From the NCBI GenBank assembly GCA_031180825.1, contig JAPSLM010000005.1, positions 1-64,000 of the forward strand: DNA of 64,000 nt, read 5' to 3'. This document shows, in pieces, positions 20,228-42,289 of the stretch; within the stretch, counting starts at the first letter, position 1; every line of letters begins with the position of its first letter. The translations under genes and the position numbers were made by a program. The stretch comes from Paenibacillus sp. GTDB lineage: Bacteria; Bacillota; Bacilli; Paenibacillales; NBRC-103111. Below the pieces are notes generated by a model that saw only the letters and a list, made by a program, of their open reading frames with translations, searched no databases and had not been told where the DNA came from.

Positions 20228-21238
20228 ATGAAGTTCACATGGTTTCAAAGCAAGCTGACGTTCGTCATCATTCCCGAAGCGAACGGAAGCGTCGTTCGCC
20301 TTAAGCTGTCCCGCGCTGCCCTGTGGAGCGCACTCTTTCTTATGCTGCTGCTCTCCGGGACGACCTGCACTCTCCTTATCCGGAGCTGGCATTCCACGGT
20401 TTCCGTTTCGCTGAAATCGGTGGAGATGAAAGGACGGGCGACGCAGCTGGAGCAGGATTTACATCGGAAAAACGCAGCCATTGAACGGCTGCAAAACGAT
20501 ATTTATGCGCTTTCGAAGCAAGCCGAAGAAGTCCGGAGCCAAATGGAACGGCTGAAACGGCTCGAGCAGGATTTGAATAAGCTGGCTCCCGGCAGCGCCG
20601 AGCGCCGGAAAACCGGCGGACAACCGGTATCCGCGGCCGTTTCTGCCCATGCAGGGGGGATGGGCGGCGAAGCGTTCCCCGTCACCGAGGGACAGACGCA
20701 CGAGCTGGCTGCCGCGGCGGGGGCCCGTTATACGGCGCTGCACGCCGAGATAAAGGAGCTTGCCTCCCGGCTCGGCCAAACGAAGCGGCAGCTGCAGGAG
20801 AAGCAGGAGCGGCAGCGGCGCACGCCCGACATATGGCCTACGCTGTCCAAAATCGTTACCTCGCCGTACGGCTACCGCAAAGACCCGTTTACGAACAAGC
20901 TCAGCTTCCATCGCGGCATCGACATTGCGGGCAAGCTGGGCGATCCGGTTTATGCGGTAGCGGGCGGCGTCGTCCAATCGGTCGGCTACGACAAGCTGCA
21001 CGGACATAACGTCGTGATCGAGCACGACAAAGGGCTAAAGACGTGGTACATGCATCTGAACAGCGCCCAGGTGAATCGTGGCGATAAAGTGGGTAAAGGA
21101 CAGACGATCGGCCAGTTGGGAACAACCGGCCGCAGCACCGGCCCCCACCTGCACTACGAAGTGCTGCTCAGCGGCAAAAGCACCGATCCCGCACCGTATA
21201 TGCCAAGCGTCAAACGAAAAAAGGAGGGGAAAAAGTGA
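20228..21238 (+). CDS. M23 family metallopeptidase with N-terminal TM and coiled coil
   Basis: SPYGYRKDPFTNKLSFHRGIDIAGKLGDPVYAVAGGVV...HLHYEVLLSGKSTDPAPYM; RBS GGAG before ATG 20228. Confidence 0.93.
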   Translation: MKFTWFQSKLTFVIIPEANGSVVRLKLSRAALWSALFLMLLLSGTTCTLLIRSWHSTVSVSLKSVEMKGRATQLEQDLHRKNAAIERLQNDIYALSKQAEEVRSQMERLKRLEQDLNKLAPGSAERRKTGGQPVSAAVSAHAGGMGGEAFPVTEGQTHELAAAAGARYTALHAEIKELASRLGQTKRQLQEKQERQRRTPDIWPTLSKIVTSPYGYRKDPFTNKLSFHRGIDIAGKLGDPVYAVAGGVVQSVGYDKLHGHNVVIEHDKGLKTWYMHLNSAQVNRGDKVGKGQTIGQLGTTGRSTGPHLHYEVLLSGKSTDPAPYMPSVKRKKEGKK

Positions 21239-21639
21239 TGTTTCGAATAAACGGCTTGCGAAGCCGCTCTTCGCGTTCCGGACGCTCCGTCTCGCTGGTC
21301 GGCGAGGGTACCGTCCTAGAAGGCTCATTCCGCTCCGAAGCCGACGTGCGCATCGAAGGAGAGTTTCAAGGATTGCTTCAAGCCGCGGGCGAGGTGGCTG
21401 TCGGAGAGAAGGGCTTCGTCCGCTCCTCCGATCTTCGCGCCCGCGACGTGGTTATCGCCGGAAGGCTGGAAGGACGCGTAGAGGCGGAGGGCGTCGTCCG
21501 CATCACCCCGACGGGCCGCTTGATCGGCACCGTCCGCGCCGCTACGCTAATTATCGAGCCTGGGGCCGTGTTCCAAGGCCAGAGCGAGATGGGCCAAGCG
21601 CCGCAGGAGGATGCGTCCCTTGTCATAGCCGTGCTATAA
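21235..21639 (+). CDS. Bactofilin (polymer-forming cytoskeletal protein)
   Basis: VGEGTVLEGSFRSEADVRIEGEFQG...GEVAVGEKGFVRSSDLRARDVVIAGRLEGRVEAEGVVRITPTGRLIGTV beta-helix repeats; overlaps the M23 stop. Confidence 0.92.
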   Translation: MMFRINGLRSRSSRSGRSVSLVGEGTVLEGSFRSEADVRIEGEFQGLLQAAGEVAVGEKGFVRSSDLRARDVVIAGRLEGRVEAEGVVRITPTGRLIGTVRAATLIIEPGAVFQGQSEMGQAPQEDASLVIAVL

Positions 21640-21648
21640 TGAAGAGAA

Positions 21649-21861
21649 AAGCTTTTTGTTGTTAAGGTTGAATGCCTTGCTTCCGGCTCCGGCCGGCCTG
21701 CGAGAAAAAAGGCCCGCCTTCACTCGGACACGTTATTCACGAATCCTTGGAATCCATTTTAAGCTGATGGGATTCGTGAAAAAAACTCGCGGCGATCCTT
21801 TTTTCTCTACGGCCTCTAGGCCTATGCAAGAATAAGGCATTCAAAAACCAACAAAAAGCTT
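21649..21861. repeat. 213-nt nested imperfect palindrome (MITE-like element or large structured RNA)
   Basis: Four nested perfect arm pairs: AAGCTTTTTGTTG (21649-21661/21849-21861), TTGAATGCCTT (21668-21678/21834-21844), GAGAAAAAAGG (21702-21712/21797-21807), TTCACGAATCC (21736-21746/21770-21780). Confidence 0.85.
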
Positions 21862-21885
21862 AGAGAGAGAGTAGGAGAAATCGCT

Positions 21886-22644
21886 ATGATTAAAGTGCAG
21901 CAAACCATCCTGTTCGATATGGACGATACGCTTCTGTATTGCAACAAATTTTTCGATATGGTGATCGACCAATTCGCAGACCAAATGGAAGCGTGGTTTC
22001 ACGGCTACCACCTGACCATCGAAGAGATCAAGAAAAAACAAACGGAAATCGATTTGGAGCTGGTGCATGTCAGCGGCTTTGCGCCGGACCACTTCCCCCA
22101 ATCGTTCGTTGATACGTATGAATATTACACCGATTTGACCGGCCGGCTCAAAAATGACGGGGAAGTCAAACGGCTGATCGAGCTCGGCGCCTCCGTCTAC
22201 GGCCACAGCATCGAGCCGTACCCTTATATGGAAGAGACGCTCCGCATGCTTCAAGAGGACGGCCATACGCTTCACTTGTATACCGGAGGGGACCCGACGG
22301 TGCAGATGCGCAAGGTGAAGGAAGCGGAGCTGGAACGGTTCTTCGGCAGCCGAATCTACGTCACGCGCCATAAAAACGCGGAGTACCTCGACGGACTCAT
22401 CCGTGCGAACGGCTTCGACCGGAACAACACCTGGATGATCGGCAATTCGCTCCGCACCGATATTATCCCGGCGCTCAAGGCGGGCATTCACGCTATCTTC
22501 ATGCCTGCGGAGGTGGAGTGGGCCTACAATCAGGTCGAGGTGGACGTGGAGCCGTCCGGCGCCTATTTCACGCTGTCTTCCTTGCGGTATATCCCCGAAA
22601 CCATTCGCAACTATACGGCCGGGAAAGTCGCCGCAGGCTCTTAA
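21886..22644 (+). CDS. HAD family hydrolase
   Basis: ILFDMDDTLLYCNKFFD (motif I), LYTGGDP, WMIGNSLRTDIIPALKAG. Confidence 0.9.
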   Translation: MIKVQQTILFDMDDTLLYCNKFFDMVIDQFADQMEAWFHGYHLTIEEIKKKQTEIDLELVHVSGFAPDHFPQSFVDTYEYYTDLTGRLKNDGEVKRLIELGASVYGHSIEPYPYMEETLRMLQEDGHTLHLYTGGDPTVQMRKVKEAELERFFGSRIYVTRHKNAEYLDGLIRANGFDRNNTWMIGNSLRTDIIPALKAGIHAIFMPAEVEWAYNQVEVDVEPSGAYFTLSSLRYIPETIRNYTAGKVAAGS

Positions 22645-22741
22645 CCCGCCGAATACCGGTCCGGGGGCCGCGCGCCCGTCCCGCATCTTCCCGAACCCGC
22701 GCATGATTTGCCGGGAGCCCCCATACAATGTTGGGGAAAGG

Positions 22742-24661
22742 ATGATGAGCATGAGCAGCCTCCACCGGATCGTCGAAACCGCCACCGATCGTTTGATGCA
22801 GATGCTGCTGACGCGGCAATCGCAGGACGGGACGTGGCGTTTTTGCTTTGAAAACGGGATCTTGACGGACAGTTATCTGATTTTGTTATTAAGATCGTTA
22901 AGCATAAAGGACGAGAACCTTATACGGCGTTTAGCAAACCGGATTTTATCGAGGCAGGAAGCAAACGGCGCGTGGAAATGGTTTTACGACGACGGCGACG
23001 GCCATTTGTCGGCGACGGTCGAGGCTTATGCGGCGCTGCGGTATGCCGGGCTTCCCGCCTCCGGCGAGGCGATGACGCGGGCGAGACGGTTTATTTTGTC
23101 CAAGGGCGGCATGCGGAACGTCAGCGGCTTGCTGACCAAGGTGATGCTTGCCGCCATCGGTCAGTATCCTTGGCCGCGCCCGTTCCCCTTCCCGCCCGAA
23201 TTGCTGCTGCTTCCCCCGTCGTTCCCCCTGAGCTTTTACCGCTTTTCCAATTACGCCCGCGTGCATCTGGCGCCCATTGCGATCTTGGGCGTCCGGCAGT
23301 TTACGGTCAAAACGGCAGAGGCGCCCGACTTATCCGAGCTGCTGCCCGCCCGCGAGCGCTGGTCGCCGCATGACGAGGGATCGGAGCTCGGAGAAGACCG
23401 ACGCTTCGCCGGCTGGCGGATCGACATTCAACGCGCTCTGCATAAGCTGCCCTGCCTGCCGCAGGAGCTCCGCCGGCTGGCGCTCCGGCGTGCCGAGCGT
23501 TATATGCTTGAGCGGATCGAACCGAACGGGACGCTATACAGCTATGCATCCTGCACATTTCTGATGGTACATGCGCTGCGGGCGCTCGGTTACGAAGAGC
23601 GGCATCCCGTCATCACGAGAGCGGTTCAAGGCCTGATCTCGCTCGCCTGCGAACCCGAAGGGCAGCTGCACGTGCAAAACTCGCCCTCCACCGTCTGGGA
23701 TACGGCGCTTATCAGCCATGCGCTTCAGGAAGCCGGGCTTCCAGCTTCGCACCCGGCCATCCGGCGGGCGGACGCCTACCTGCTCTCGCGCCAGCACACG
23801 AAGCTCGGCGATTGGAGCGCCGATGTCGCGAACCCCGTTCCCGGCGGCTGGGGATTCTCCGACGTCAATACGATCGTGCCGGACATGGACGATACGACCG
23901 CCGCGCTGCGGGCGCTGCGCCGAAGTCCGGGACGGCCCGAGGCCGGATACCGCGAAGCAAGGAGCCGGGGCCTTCATTGGGTGCTGTCGCTGCAGAACGA
24001 CGACGGCGGCTGGCCGGCCTTCGAGCGAAACAAAAACTCCCCGCTGCTCGCCGCTCTTCCCGTCGACGGCGCGGAGGCAGCGCTCGACGCTTCAGCCGCG
24101 GACCTGACCGGGCGCACGCTGGAATATTTGGGCGCTTGGGCGGCTCTCCGCCAAGAGCAGCCGTTCATCCGGCGCGCCGTCCGTTGGCTGCTCGACCATC
24201 AGGAGCGCAACGGCTCCTGGTACGGCCGCTGGGGCATCTGCTACATTTACGGGACCTGGGCCGCCGTGACCGGACTCGCCGCCGCCGGAGTTCCGCCCGA
24301 TCAACCGGAGCTGCGGCGAGCGGTACGATGGCTGGCCGGCATCCAAAACCCGGACGGCGGCTTCGGCGAGTCGTGCCGCAGCGACCGGGCCAAAATCTAC
24401 ATCCCGCTGGGCGCGAGCACGCCCTCGCAGACCGCTTGGGCGCTCGATGCGCTGATCGCCGTTCATCCGGCGCCGACCGACGCCATCAACCGGGCGGCGC
24501 ATGCGCTGGCGGACATGCTGGAGGCCGGGGACGCCTCCTGGCCGGCCAAGTATCCTACCGGCGCCGCGCTGCCCGGGGATTTTTACGTGCGCTATCACAG
24601 CTATAACGTGATCTGGCCGCTGCTGGCGCTGGCGCATTACAGGAACAAATACGGGTCCTGA
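22742..24661 (+). CDS. Squalene-hopene cyclase family terpene cyclase
   Basis: Class II DxDD motif PDMDDTTAALRAL, QW repeats (QSQDGTWRF, QNDDGGWPAF, QERNGSWYGRWG, QNPDGGFGES). Confidence 0.92.
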   Translation: MMSMSSLHRIVETATDRLMQMLLTRQSQDGTWRFCFENGILTDSYLILLLRSLSIKDENLIRRLANRILSRQEANGAWKWFYDDGDGHLSATVEAYAALRYAGLPASGEAMTRARRFILSKGGMRNVSGLLTKVMLAAIGQYPWPRPFPFPPELLLLPPSFPLSFYRFSNYARVHLAPIAILGVRQFTVKTAEAPDLSELLPARERWSPHDEGSELGEDRRFAGWRIDIQRALHKLPCLPQELRRLALRRAERYMLERIEPNGTLYSYASCTFLMVHALRALGYEERHPVITRAVQGLISLACEPEGQLHVQNSPSTVWDTALISHALQEAGLPASHPAIRRADAYLLSRQHTKLGDWSADVANPVPGGWGFSDVNTIVPDMDDTTAALRALRRSPGRPEAGYREARSRGLHWVLSLQNDDGGWPAFERNKNSPLLAALPVDGAEAALDASAADLTGRTLEYLGAWAALRQEQPFIRRAVRWLLDHQERNGSWYGRWGICYIYGTWAAVTGLAAAGVPPDQPELRRAVRWLAGIQNPDGGFGESCRSDRAKIYIPLGASTPSQTAWALDALIAVHPAPTDAINRAAHALADMLEAGDASWPAKYPTGAALPGDFYVRYHSYNVIWPLLALAHYRNKYGS

Positions 24662-25387: not shown

Positions 25388-26826
25388 ACAAACTGACGTT
25401 CCGCAGTCAATTCGGCGTCGCTTTTCTGCTCGTGCTGCTCCTGAGCTTCGCCTGCTCCGTCGCCGTTTGGGGCGTAAGCACTTATTATATTTTCACGAAC
25501 GAGAAGACCGTTCGCCCGGCCAACTACTTCGAAAAGCAAATCCCGGAAATCGCCGGTTACGCCCTCGGGCTCAAGGAAGCGCTCTTGACGCCCGCCGCCC
25601 GGACCGCTCTGGAAGAGCGGATCCCGGCGGCCGGCATTCAATATCAGGTCCTCGATGCCCAAGGCGAATTCCGGTACGGGACGATGGATAAAAGCTACAT
25701 CTCCTCCAAAGAAGAGCTGCTGTCGAAGCTGAATACAAACGAGCGTATCAACGGGAAGATCGTGTTGTTCTACCCCCTATCGGACGCCCAAGGCGGGCTG
25801 GCCGGCGTATTCGTTCTCCGCTACGATTTAAGTCTGGTCACGAGCAACGCGGACCAGCCGCTGGCTACGTTTTTGCTCATCGTTACGAATTTGGCCGCTC
25901 CGTTCGTCTTTATCATGCTGTTTACGTTTCTGTTGGCCCGCAGGCTCGGAAGCCGGCTGAAGCCTCCGGTCAGCCGGTTAACCGACGGAGCCCGCCGGAT
26001 TCAGCAGGGCAATTTGGATTTTACATTGGCGGATGTCGGCGGCTCCAAGGAATTGGCCGAGTTGGCCTCCGCTTTCGAAGAGATGCGGCGCGCCCTGCGC
26101 GATTCGCTCACGGCCCAGTGGAAGATGGAGCAGCAGCGCTGCGACATGGTGGCCGCGATCACACACGATCTGCGTACGCCGCTGACGATCATTCGGGGGC
26201 ACGTGGACAATCTGCTGGAGGGAGCGGCCCAACGTCCGGACCGGCTCCCCCGCTATTTGCGGACGATTCAGGGAAACACGGAGCGGGCGGCCCGCCTGCT
26301 GGACGAGCTGACGACGGTATCGGATATCGAGCGTCCGGATTTCACCTTATCTCCCGTCGCCCTTGCGCTCCTTCCGTTCTTCGAGCGTAAACGCGGCGAC
26401 TACAAGCTGCTGTGCGAGAGCAAGCGGGTTGCCTTGCTCCTGAACACCGACGGGTTGAAGCCCGATCAAACGCTGTGGATCGATTGCCTCCGGCTGGAGC
26501 AAATCATGGATAACCTGATGGCCAACAGCCTTCGCTTCACCCCGGAGGGCGGCGAAATTCGCTGGCGGGTCGGCTGCCGGGACGGGCGGCTGCAGTTCGA
26601 GGTGCTGGATTCGGGACGGGGCTTCAGCGCTGGCGATCTTGCGCATCTGTTCGAGCAATTTTATCAGGGGGACCCGTCCCGCTCCGAAGAAAAAGGCCAC
26701 GCTGGACTCGGACTGTATATTGTGAAAAAGCTGGCGGAGAAGCACGGCGGTCATGCCGCCGCGTTCAACCGCCCGGAAGGCGGCGCACGGATTTGCGTCA
26801 CGCTAAAAGAGATGGCCTCCGCCTAG
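25384..26826 (+). CDS. Sensor histidine kinase
   Basis: AAITHDLRTPLTIIRGHVDNLLEG, LDSGRGFSAGDLAHLFEQFYQGD, HAGLGLYIVKKLAEKHGG. Confidence 0.94.
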   Translation: MNKLTFRSQFGVAFLLVLLLSFACSVAVWGVSTYYIFTNEKTVRPANYFEKQIPEIAGYALGLKEALLTPAARTALEERIPAAGIQYQVLDAQGEFRYGTMDKSYISSKEELLSKLNTNERINGKIVLFYPLSDAQGGLAGVFVLRYDLSLVTSNADQPLATFLLIVTNLAAPFVFIMLFTFLLARRLGSRLKPPVSRLTDGARRIQQGNLDFTLADVGGSKELAELASAFEEMRRALRDSLTAQWKMEQQRCDMVAAITHDLRTPLTIIRGHVDNLLEGAAQRPDRLPRYLRTIQGNTERAARLLDELTTVSDIERPDFTLSPVALALLPFFERKRGDYKLLCESKRVALLLNTDGLKPDQTLWIDCLRLEQIMDNLMANSLRFTPEGGEIRWRVGCRDGRLQFEVLDSGRGFSAGDLAHLFEQFYQGDPSRSEEKGHAGLGLYIVKKLAEKHGGHAAAFNRPEGGARICVTLKEMASA

Positions 26827-40420: not shown

Positions 40421-41002
40421 GTGGCCAAGCTATATTTTCGTTACGGAACGATGAACAGCGGCAAGTCGATCGAAGTACTGCGCGTCGCACACAATTACGA
40501 GGAGCAAGGCAAGAAAGTGCTGCTCTTCACCCCTGCGGTGGATGACCGGGACGGCGTGGGCGTCGTCGCTTCCCGCATCGGGATGAAGAAGGACGGCATC
40601 GTCATTGACGACAGCCTCGACATGATCGGAATGGCGGCGGCCGAGCGGCCGAACTGCATTCTGATCGACGAAGCGCAGTTTCTGAACAAGCAGCAGGTGC
40701 TGCAGCTCACGGAAATCGCGGATACGCTCGGCATTCCCGTCATCGCGTACGGGCTGCGGGCGGATTTTCTCGGCCAGCTGTTCGAGGGCAGCTATCATCT
40801 GTTTGCGCTGGCGGACAAAATCGAGGAAATCAAGACGGTCTGCTGGTACTGCGACCGCAAAGCGACGATGAACATGCGCCTTGCCGACGGCAAGCCGGTA
40901 TTCGAGGGCGCGCAGATTCAAATCGGCGGCAACGAAAGCTACTTGCCGGTATGCCGCAAATGCTACTCCATGCAAAAGAACCAAACGCAACCCCATTCAT
41001 GA
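40421..41002 (+). CDS. tdk: Thymidine kinase
   Basis: LYFRYGTMNSGKSIEVL P-loop, CILIDEAQFL, YGLRADF; GTG start. Confidence 0.95.
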   Translation: MAKLYFRYGTMNSGKSIEVLRVAHNYEEQGKKVLLFTPAVDDRDGVGVVASRIGMKKDGIVIDDSLDMIGMAAAERPNCILIDEAQFLNKQQVLQLTEIADTLGIPVIAYGLRADFLGQLFEGSYHLFALADKIEEIKTVCWYCDRKATMNMRLADGKPVFEGAQIQIGGNESYLPVCRKCYSMQKNQTQPHS

Positions 41003-41005
41003 ATA

Positions 41006-41045
41006 CAAAAACGGAGCGAAGCGCCTCGACGCCTTGCTCCGTTTT
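41006..41045. terminator. Bidirectional terminator between tdk and the aminopeptidase
   Basis: AAAACGGAGCGAAGCG...CTTGCTCCGTTTT. Confidence 0.75.
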
Positions 41046-41050
41046 CCGTT

Positions 41051-42289
41051 TTAGACGGGCAGCGCCCAGTTGCCGTTGCGGAATACCGGCTCCCGTACGC
41101 CGTCCTGCGTAACTCCGTCGATGTTCATGTCGGCCGAGCCGATCATGAAATCGACGTGCACCAGACTGCTGTTCGCCCCATGCCGGGACAGCTCCTCTTC
41201 CTTCATCTCCGTGCCGCCGTCCAGATTGACCGGGTACGCTTGTCCGAGAGCAAGATGGCTTGACGCATTCTCGTCGAACAGCGTGTTGTAAAAGATCAGA
41301 TTCGTATTGGAGATCGGAGATTCGTGCGGAACCAGGGCGACCTCGCCAAGCTTGCGCGCTCCCTCATCCGTCGCAAGCAGACGCTCCAGGATCTCGTAGC
41401 CTTGGTCCGCCGAGAAATCGACGACTTTGCCGTTCTTGAACGTCAGGCTGAATCCGTCGATTAGCTGGCCTCCGTGATTAAGCGGCTTCGTGCTGCGGAC
41501 CACGCCGTTGACACCGTCCTGCCGGGGCATCGTGAATACTTCCTCCGTCGGCAGATTCGGGTTGAAAAGAACGTCCTTGGCGTTCTCTTTCGCGCCGCCG
41601 AGCCAGACGTGCTTCTCCGGCAGGTCCACGGTCAGGCTCGTGCCCGACGCTTCGTAGACGAGCTGCTTGTACCGTTTCTCGTTCAAGTAGCTTACGGTCC
41701 GGGCCAGACGGGCATTATGCTCCTTCCAGGCTTCGACCGGGTCGTCCGCGTTCACGCGGGTCGCTTCGAAAATACGCTCCCACAGGGCATCGAGAGCAGC
41801 CTCCGGCGAGAGCTCGGGAAAAATTTTCAACGCCCATTCCGGGGTTGCGTAAGCCATCAGCGTCCAAGACGCGCGGTGCGCCATCAGCTGGCTGCGGTAC
41901 CCTTTCAATGCGGTAGAAGCTGTCTTGTTCGCCGTAGAGACCCGCTCCGGATCGACGTCCTGGAGCAGGTCCGGATTCGGCCCGTAAAATTGAATAAAGG
42001 CCGCATCGTTCTCCGCCAGCTCCTGAAGGCCTTGCGCCTTCCACATCGGAAATTCGTGAAACGCTTCCATCGGCGCCATCTTGTATTTGATCCGCGTCAG
42101 TTCCTCGTCGTTCCATTCGACCATGACGTTTTTCGCGCCGGCCTCATAAGCCTTGACGGCGACAAGCCGGACCAGCTCCGCGGCGGCGACCGGGGCCATA
42201 ACGACCACCGTTTGTCCCTGCTGTACATTGGCGCCTACCCGAACGGCCAGCGTTGCATATTTCTCCAGTTTTTGGGCAAATGTGCTCAT
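41051..42289 (-). CDS. M29 family aminopeptidase (AmpS-like)
   Basis: MSTFAQKLEKYATLAVRVGANVQQGQTVVVMAPV..., GEVALVPHESPISNTNLIFYNTLFDENASSHLALGQAYP, VHVDFMIGSADMNIDG; GGAGG RBS. Confidence 0.93.
   Translation of the reverse strand: MSTFAQKLEKYATLAVRVGANVQQGQTVVVMAPVAAAELVRLVAVKAYEAGAKNVMVEWNDEELTRIKYKMAPMEAFHEFPMWKAQGLQELAENDAAFIQFYGPNPDLLQDVDPERVSTANKTASTALKGYRSQLMAHRASWTLMAYATPEWALKIFPELSPEAALDALWERIFEATRVNADDPVEAWKEHNARLARTVSYLNEKRYKQLVYEASGTSLTVDLPEKHVWLGGAKENAKDVLFNPNLPTEEVFTMPRQDGVNGVVRSTKPLNHGGQLIDGFSLTFKNGKVVDFSADQGYEILERLLATDEGARKLGEVALVPHESPISNTNLIFYNTLFDENASSHLALGQAYPVNLDGGTEMKEEELSRHGANSSLVHVDFMIGSADMNIDGVTQDGVREPVFRNGNWALPV

Follow-up and report, generated by a model that had tools for sequence, protein, structure and literature searches.

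The ERIC (or IRU) sequences of enterobacteria are approximately 127 bp long. They are small imperfect intergenic palindromes that are transcribed and MITE-like (Delihas 2007, PMC2229807). The NEMIS/Correia elements of Neisseria are small MITEs with 24-bp terminal inverted repeats and TA ends, and their transcribed stems have been proposed as RNase III processing sites (PMC2229807). Among the repeats bcr1 to bcr18 of the Bacillus cereus group, bcr1-3 are MITE-like and occur in untranslated regions and operons, bcr10 and bcr18 have a conserved RNA structure in 5' untranslated regions, and the presence of bcr3 correlates with a longer mRNA half-life (PMC3446304). MITEs with RNA structure are, in short, an already known kind of element.

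Here we analyze a hairpin in a 64,000-nt stretch of DNA from Paenibacillus sp. (the window), the inner part of which belongs to a family in the Paenibacillaceae. The family shares with ERIC a small size, intergenic location and imperfect palindromic form, whereas the sequence, hosts and ends differ. We know of no report of wholesale replacement of the ERIC arms around invariant G-A internal loops. The bcr repeats, compared by their description, are also from Firmicutes, and the Paenibacillaceae family unites mobility with an RNA-like core. Unlike those of the NEMIS/Correia elements, its arms diverge while its loops stay fixed. Neither Rfam nor the literature searched contained a family held together by its fold that has exchangeable arms, fixed loops and several kinds of transposon ends, and the open-access publications searched yielded nothing relevant on MITEs of Paenibacillus or of IS1182 that carry a core of this type. 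We think it rather likely that the palindrome in the window is a host leader hairpin with a built-in copy of a structured Paenibacillaceae MITE, acting as a transcribed hairpin. The first part of this reading, a host 5'-leader hairpin plus a copy of a MITE family with an RNA-like core, is very likely, and the second part, the function, is put forward tentatively.

The composite hairpin and the HAD leader

The hairpin lies between a bactofilin gene and a gene for a HAD-family hydrolase, at the following positions of the window.

21235-21639, plus strand: bactofilin gene (PF04519; Pfam 5e-24), upstream of the hairpin
21632-21640, plus strand: TGCTATAAT, a predicted promoter element (extended -10) that overlaps the stop codon of the bactofilin gene
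21649-21661 / 21849-21861: outer arms AAGCTTTTTGTTG / CAACAAAAAGCTT, a perfect 13-bp inverted repeat with the rest nested within
21668-21678 / 21834-21844: second arm pair, a perfect 11-bp inverted repeat flanking the inner element
21695-21718 / 21791-21814: third arm pair, 24 nt (79%), including an 11-bp perfect block
21733-21746 / 21770-21783: fourth arm pair, 14 nt (93%)
21736-21780: apical helix (21736-21746 / 21770-21780, an inverted repeat and the covarying helix 4) and terminal loop
21873-21877, plus strand: AGGAG, ribosome-binding site of the HAD gene, from the sequence
21886-22644, plus strand: HAD-family hydrolase gene (Pfam Hydrolase, 7.8e-14), downstream of the hairpin
22703-24661, plus strand: squalene-hopene cyclase-like gene (Pfam SQHop_cyclase_C, 2.4e-100), next in the presumed operon

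All four nested arm pairs claimed in the initial annotation were found, and its description of one long interrupted hairpin filling the intergenic region was borne out by the fold: the 231-nt stretch has a minimum free energy of -89.7 kcal/mol, as compared with -59.5 +/- 4.8 for dinucleotide shuffles (z -6.3), and none of the 200 shuffles reached an energy as low. Elsewhere in the window, 240-nt segments that fold more strongly than their G+C content predicts lie at 541-1020, 25441-25800 and 40861-41160. A search of plasmids and phages with the window hairpin gave no match, and an origin from either was rejected; viral contigs searched for the motif gave no match as well.

The relatives that share this locus are the Paenibacillus elgii/ehimensis/tyrfis/tianmuensis group, and the HAD gene is kept in 57 of 61 genomes. 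In the locus alignment across the genus, 27 of 30 genomes have a predicted extended -10 element (TGNTATAAT) ahead of the HAD gene, either close to the end of the bactofilin gene or immediately past it, and the HAD leader is usually short (26-122 nt). In eight genomes, including that of the window, the leader is approximately 245 nt long because the inner element lies inside the outer hairpin. In the sister species G015, the leader is 66 nt and consists of the outer hairpin alone (GCTTTTTGTTGTT...AACAACAAAAAGC), the inner element being absent through either an empty site or a deletion. The leader of G013 contains a truncated remnant of the inner element, and species other than G015 have other short leaders upstream of the HAD gene.

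The comparison with G015 bears on the reading of the palindrome as a MITE flanked by a target-site duplication. The sequence AGAGA does stand beside both ends, at 21643-21647 and 21862-21866, as had been noted. Because G015 has AGAGA without the inner element, however, the repeats are part of the leader, and the inner element did not create them by duplicating its target. The palindrome is a composite of an outer leader hairpin and an inner element, and one MITE spanning all 213 nt with an AGAGA duplication was ruled out, given that the outer hairpin and AGAGA stand in G015 with no inner element. What survives of the MITE proposal concerns the inner 120 bp. These are part of a dispersed family, in which recent copies are bounded by inverted termini and exact 5-bp target duplications. 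The second arm pair is possibly a remnant of the mobile element's own ends, and its role is uncertain. Termini and a target duplication could not be recognized for the window copy itself.

One could also regard a strong hairpin immediately past the bactofilin stop codon as an oversized intrinsic terminator of that gene. We rejected this reading, which is scarcely credible, because the outer stem is not followed by a U-run and a conserved predicted promoter lies upstream of the hairpin; the next feature downstream is the HAD ribosome-binding site.

Fold and strandedness of the inner element

The first clue to the inner element came from a DNA search, in which this part was inverted in two genomes (G001 and G005) and resembled sequences upstream of ylmC. 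Two covariance models, R1 built on five copies and R2 on 60 copies, both match the window copy. R1 scored 102 bits (E 1.7e-26) on the minus strand and 20 bits on the plus strand, and R2 matched with an E of 2.8e-21. The core has the following features.

21695-21814, minus strand (canonical, running antisense to the HAD operon): 120-bp core of the mobile family, matched by R1 and R2
21699-21701, minus strand: one side of the 3x3 internal loop GNA/GNA, GCA on this strand
21808-21810, minus strand: the other side of the 3x3 loop, GTA on this strand
21723-21730, minus strand: invariant internal-loop strand 2, TGTCCGAG (TGTYTGAG in the family, here with one C for T), invariant or nearly so in 60 copies
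21782-21790, minus strand: invariant internal-loop strand 1, GCGAGTTTT, near-invariant in 60 copies

The core is laid out as a long stem, a 3x3 GNA/GNA loop (present in most copies), a 3-nt bulge, an asymmetric GCGAG / UGUYUGAG loop and an apical stem, and the internal loop GCGAGUUUU / UGUYUGAG is fixed throughout the family. Different copies have arms of unrelated sequence; nevertheless, 95.2% of the pair cells are paired as compared with 67.7% after shuffling, changes were seen on both sides in 34 of 37 pairs, and the covariation score is 0.697 as compared with 0.188 for shuffles and 0.05-0.11 for slid partners, all of these numbers being biased upwards because the alignment was fitted to the structure. 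Covariation went beyond the controls, and the unpaired nucleotides are conserved on one strand; both observations lend support to the earlier suggestion of a large structured RNA. At the ylmC site, the copies of six species (L145, L149, L151, L165, L183 and L184) have lost the apical hairpin and retain the lower stem and, in part, the loop motifs.

The copies also show a preference for one strand. G-T outnumbers A-C in the inner helices by 69 cells to 8 (about 9:1), in 55 of 60 copies the canonical strand has a better fold than the opposite one, and at co-directional sites the canonical strand is sense in 41 cases and antisense in 8 (binomial p 2e-6, with genes called by a codon model and sites de-duplicated by hand). 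Because of the excess of G-T over A-C, that is, of G-U in an RNA, and because it is usually the folding strand that is transcribed, the core most likely folds as a single strand of defined strandedness, probably RNA. From the sequence, we infer that the two G-A juxtapositions beside the asymmetric loop are kink-turn-like, in that tandem sheared-type G-A pairs lie next to an asymmetric bulge, although the bulge is 3 nt in kink-turn motifs and approximately 6 nt in the Paenibacillaceae core.

These properties allow another hypothesis, in which the core is an RNA of its own (a small RNA, a ribozyme or a ligand- or protein-binding element) that has been spread on MITEs and is no leader stabilizer. 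The covarying helices that surround invariant internal loops on one strand speak for it, as does the failure to match any Rfam family: the best Rfam 15 hit to the window had 11.5 bits (E 7.7), with none above the gathering threshold, and the 12 loci with copies had no match at E up to 1, which ruled out a known RNA family. We nevertheless consider this hypothesis unlikely, since a dedicated promoter or terminator was not found, the copies have no tie to a single pathway, and the element is antisense at the window locus. With its canonical strand running antisense to the HAD operon, the window copy is at odds with a function exerted strictly by the sense RNA. It is quite possible, if short of probable, that the family represents an undescribed structured-RNA class, a MITE cargo that has been carried with different ends and fixed between co-directional genes, its arms swapped and its fold kept.

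Distribution, mobility and fixation of the family

The R1 search recovered copies across some of the genus, and other genera had copies as well. Of 105 Paenibacillaceae genomes searched with R2, 39 contained matches (1 to approximately 31 copies each); these genomes represent 11 of 22 genera. All positives in an order-level search of 201 genomes were in Paenibacillaceae. Among 399 genomes of the phylum, the window's own genome was the sole match, a weak negative in that few candidates were scored per genome. One clostridial candidate (Caproiciproducens, L211) was judged a chance match, as no palindrome surrounds it. In the genus g37, six genomes (G084, G091, G098, G105, G106 and G107) have one copy each of similar length, possibly a single orthologous fixed site.

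The initial annotation had held that a single copy with unconserved pairing would speak against its proposals. Plain BLAST did find one copy in the window's own genome, an 85%-complete assembly, whereas the structural model found three: the window copy (C15), one at a solute-binding protein/response regulator site (C29) and one at a ypeB/PilZ-type gene site (C12). The pairing, moreover, is strongly conserved. Bacterial MITEs are usually found by sequence, and a family united by its fold escapes both BLAST and Rfam.

The members of the family are small, non-coding and dispersed (approximately 125-270 bp with their ends), many genomes having 3-31 of them, and family copies carry no transposase. 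Paenibacillus piri, G066, G069 and G067 contain near-identical copies of approximately 140-230 bp with the ends GAGACTGTCGATTAA or a sequence closely similar to it. In YN15, HB172176 and two metagenome-assembled genomes, the copies are bounded by GTCTGTCCGACG-type repeats or what remains of them, and those of G070 and G128 have TATATAAGTTGAAC ends. Of the 44 elements that have paired ends, all from species other than that of the window and four of them lacking a recognizable core, 17 show exact 5-bp target duplications and 30 show duplications with no more than one mismatch. Judged by their terminal inverted repeats (GAGACTGTCGATTAA, GAGTCTGTCCGACG or TATATAAGTTGAAC) and duplications, the recent copies are true MITEs, and one core is carried on several kinds of ends.

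An autonomous element with matching ends was found in G067, an intact 1699-bp IS (L375:366-2064) with perfect 14-bp GAGTCTGTCCGACG ends and a transposase of the IS1182 family (457 bits). Since ends of this type also surround copies in other species, the family shares GAGTCTGTCCGACG-type ends with IS1182 and differs in being without transposase; L375 is a candidate mobilizer, and no core-model match was reported inside it. For the GAGACTGTCGATTAA ends, the search for a complete parent IS gave contig-end fragments only, in G066, and the G066 IS end had no match in plasmids. No complete parent element was found for the TATATAAGTTGAAC ends. The window's own genome contains DDE_Tnp_1_6-type transposase fragments (G000:C16, C13 and C26).

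The observed ends and duplications also bear on whether the hairpin is a single-stranded DNA recombination site, similar to integron attC or to IS200/IS605/REP elements, that is read by a tyrosine or Y1 enzyme. Such a site could account for the conservation of structure over sequence, the strand asymmetry of G-T over A-C, the inversion at the HAD locus and the exchange of element types at the rpoB site. Insertion of the attC or Y1 type, however, makes no 5-bp duplications, whereas such duplications together with inverted termini in the recent copies are typical of DDE transposition, and the ends are common to a DDE element of the IS1182 family. We regard this explanation as very improbable.

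All scored copies are intergenic. From the translated neighbours, we take several of the sites to be sigG/ylmC, cysK/pabB, polC/rimP, methyltransferase/rpoB and atpD/atpC. Within each of eight orthologue groups, arm identity is 86-98%, whereas the adjacent 70-nt intergenic flanks are mostly 64-91% identical, with the exception of one flank holding the rpoB promoter region; the contrast between arm and flank is small in the HAD group. Upstream of rpoB, two unrelated arm versions (L142, L146, L158, L161 and L168 as opposed to L148, L152, L153 and L154) are distributed patchily among sister species, possibly through replacement or allele exchange.

A purely selfish MITE would need its hairpin only for transposition or excision; templated repair would keep the arms complementary, and the host would tolerate the element. 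This scenario accords with the finding that P. piri, G066 and G069 have several recent insertions each, flanked by target duplications, with the patchy presence among genomes and with the occurrence of both orientations at the HAD locus. Conserved asymmetric loops, however, would be erased by templated repair, orthologous arms outlast their flanks, the sense bias is strong, and the core is kept across copies with differing terminal repeats (GAGACTGTCGATTAA, GAGTCTGTCCGACG, TATATAAGTTGAAC). For a purely selfish element, these points make the case somewhat unlikely, although intramolecular templated repair of hairpins could contribute part of the arm conservation. The family joins recent mobility, RNA-grade covariation and long-term fixation in core-gene operons, which are usually separate.

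Proposed role of the hairpin at the HAD locus

According to the reading that we favour, an old copy of a non-autonomous MITE would have been built into the leader hairpin of the HAD/squalene-hopene-cyclase operon, where it would act as a transcribed intercistronic or leader hairpin. The element would lengthen the leader from approximately 30-120 nt to approximately 245 nt and place a long stem at the extreme 5' end of the mRNA, beginning approximately 8 nt past the predicted -10 element and stopping 24 nt before the HAD start codon. This placement would fit a 5'-end stabilizer or a site for a double-strand RNase. One possible function, which we model with some hesitation, is that the hairpin shields mRNA 5' ends or marks a site of processing by a protein that is specific for double strands or binds the loop. 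The NEMIS stems (RNase III) and bcr3 (half-life) are the analogues of such a role. The invariant loop further suggests either a protein partner or an activity of the RNA; at the HAD locus, the plain stem may be of greater importance than this loop.

The main difficulty for the transcribed-hairpin mechanism is the antisense orientation in the window. The window and five sister species have the canonical strand in antisense orientation relative to the HAD operon, and two species (G001 and G005) have it in sense. The natural series of sites, orientations and arm replacements bears on whether selfish hairpins become regulatory parts of mRNAs and on which protein or activity reads the invariant loop. 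The two sense-oriented loci, L053 (G005) and L058 (G001), share both the inverted inner element and the right flank, and the two genomes are nonetheless not sisters in the HAD gene tree; either allele exchange or an old polymorphism could account for the shared inversion.
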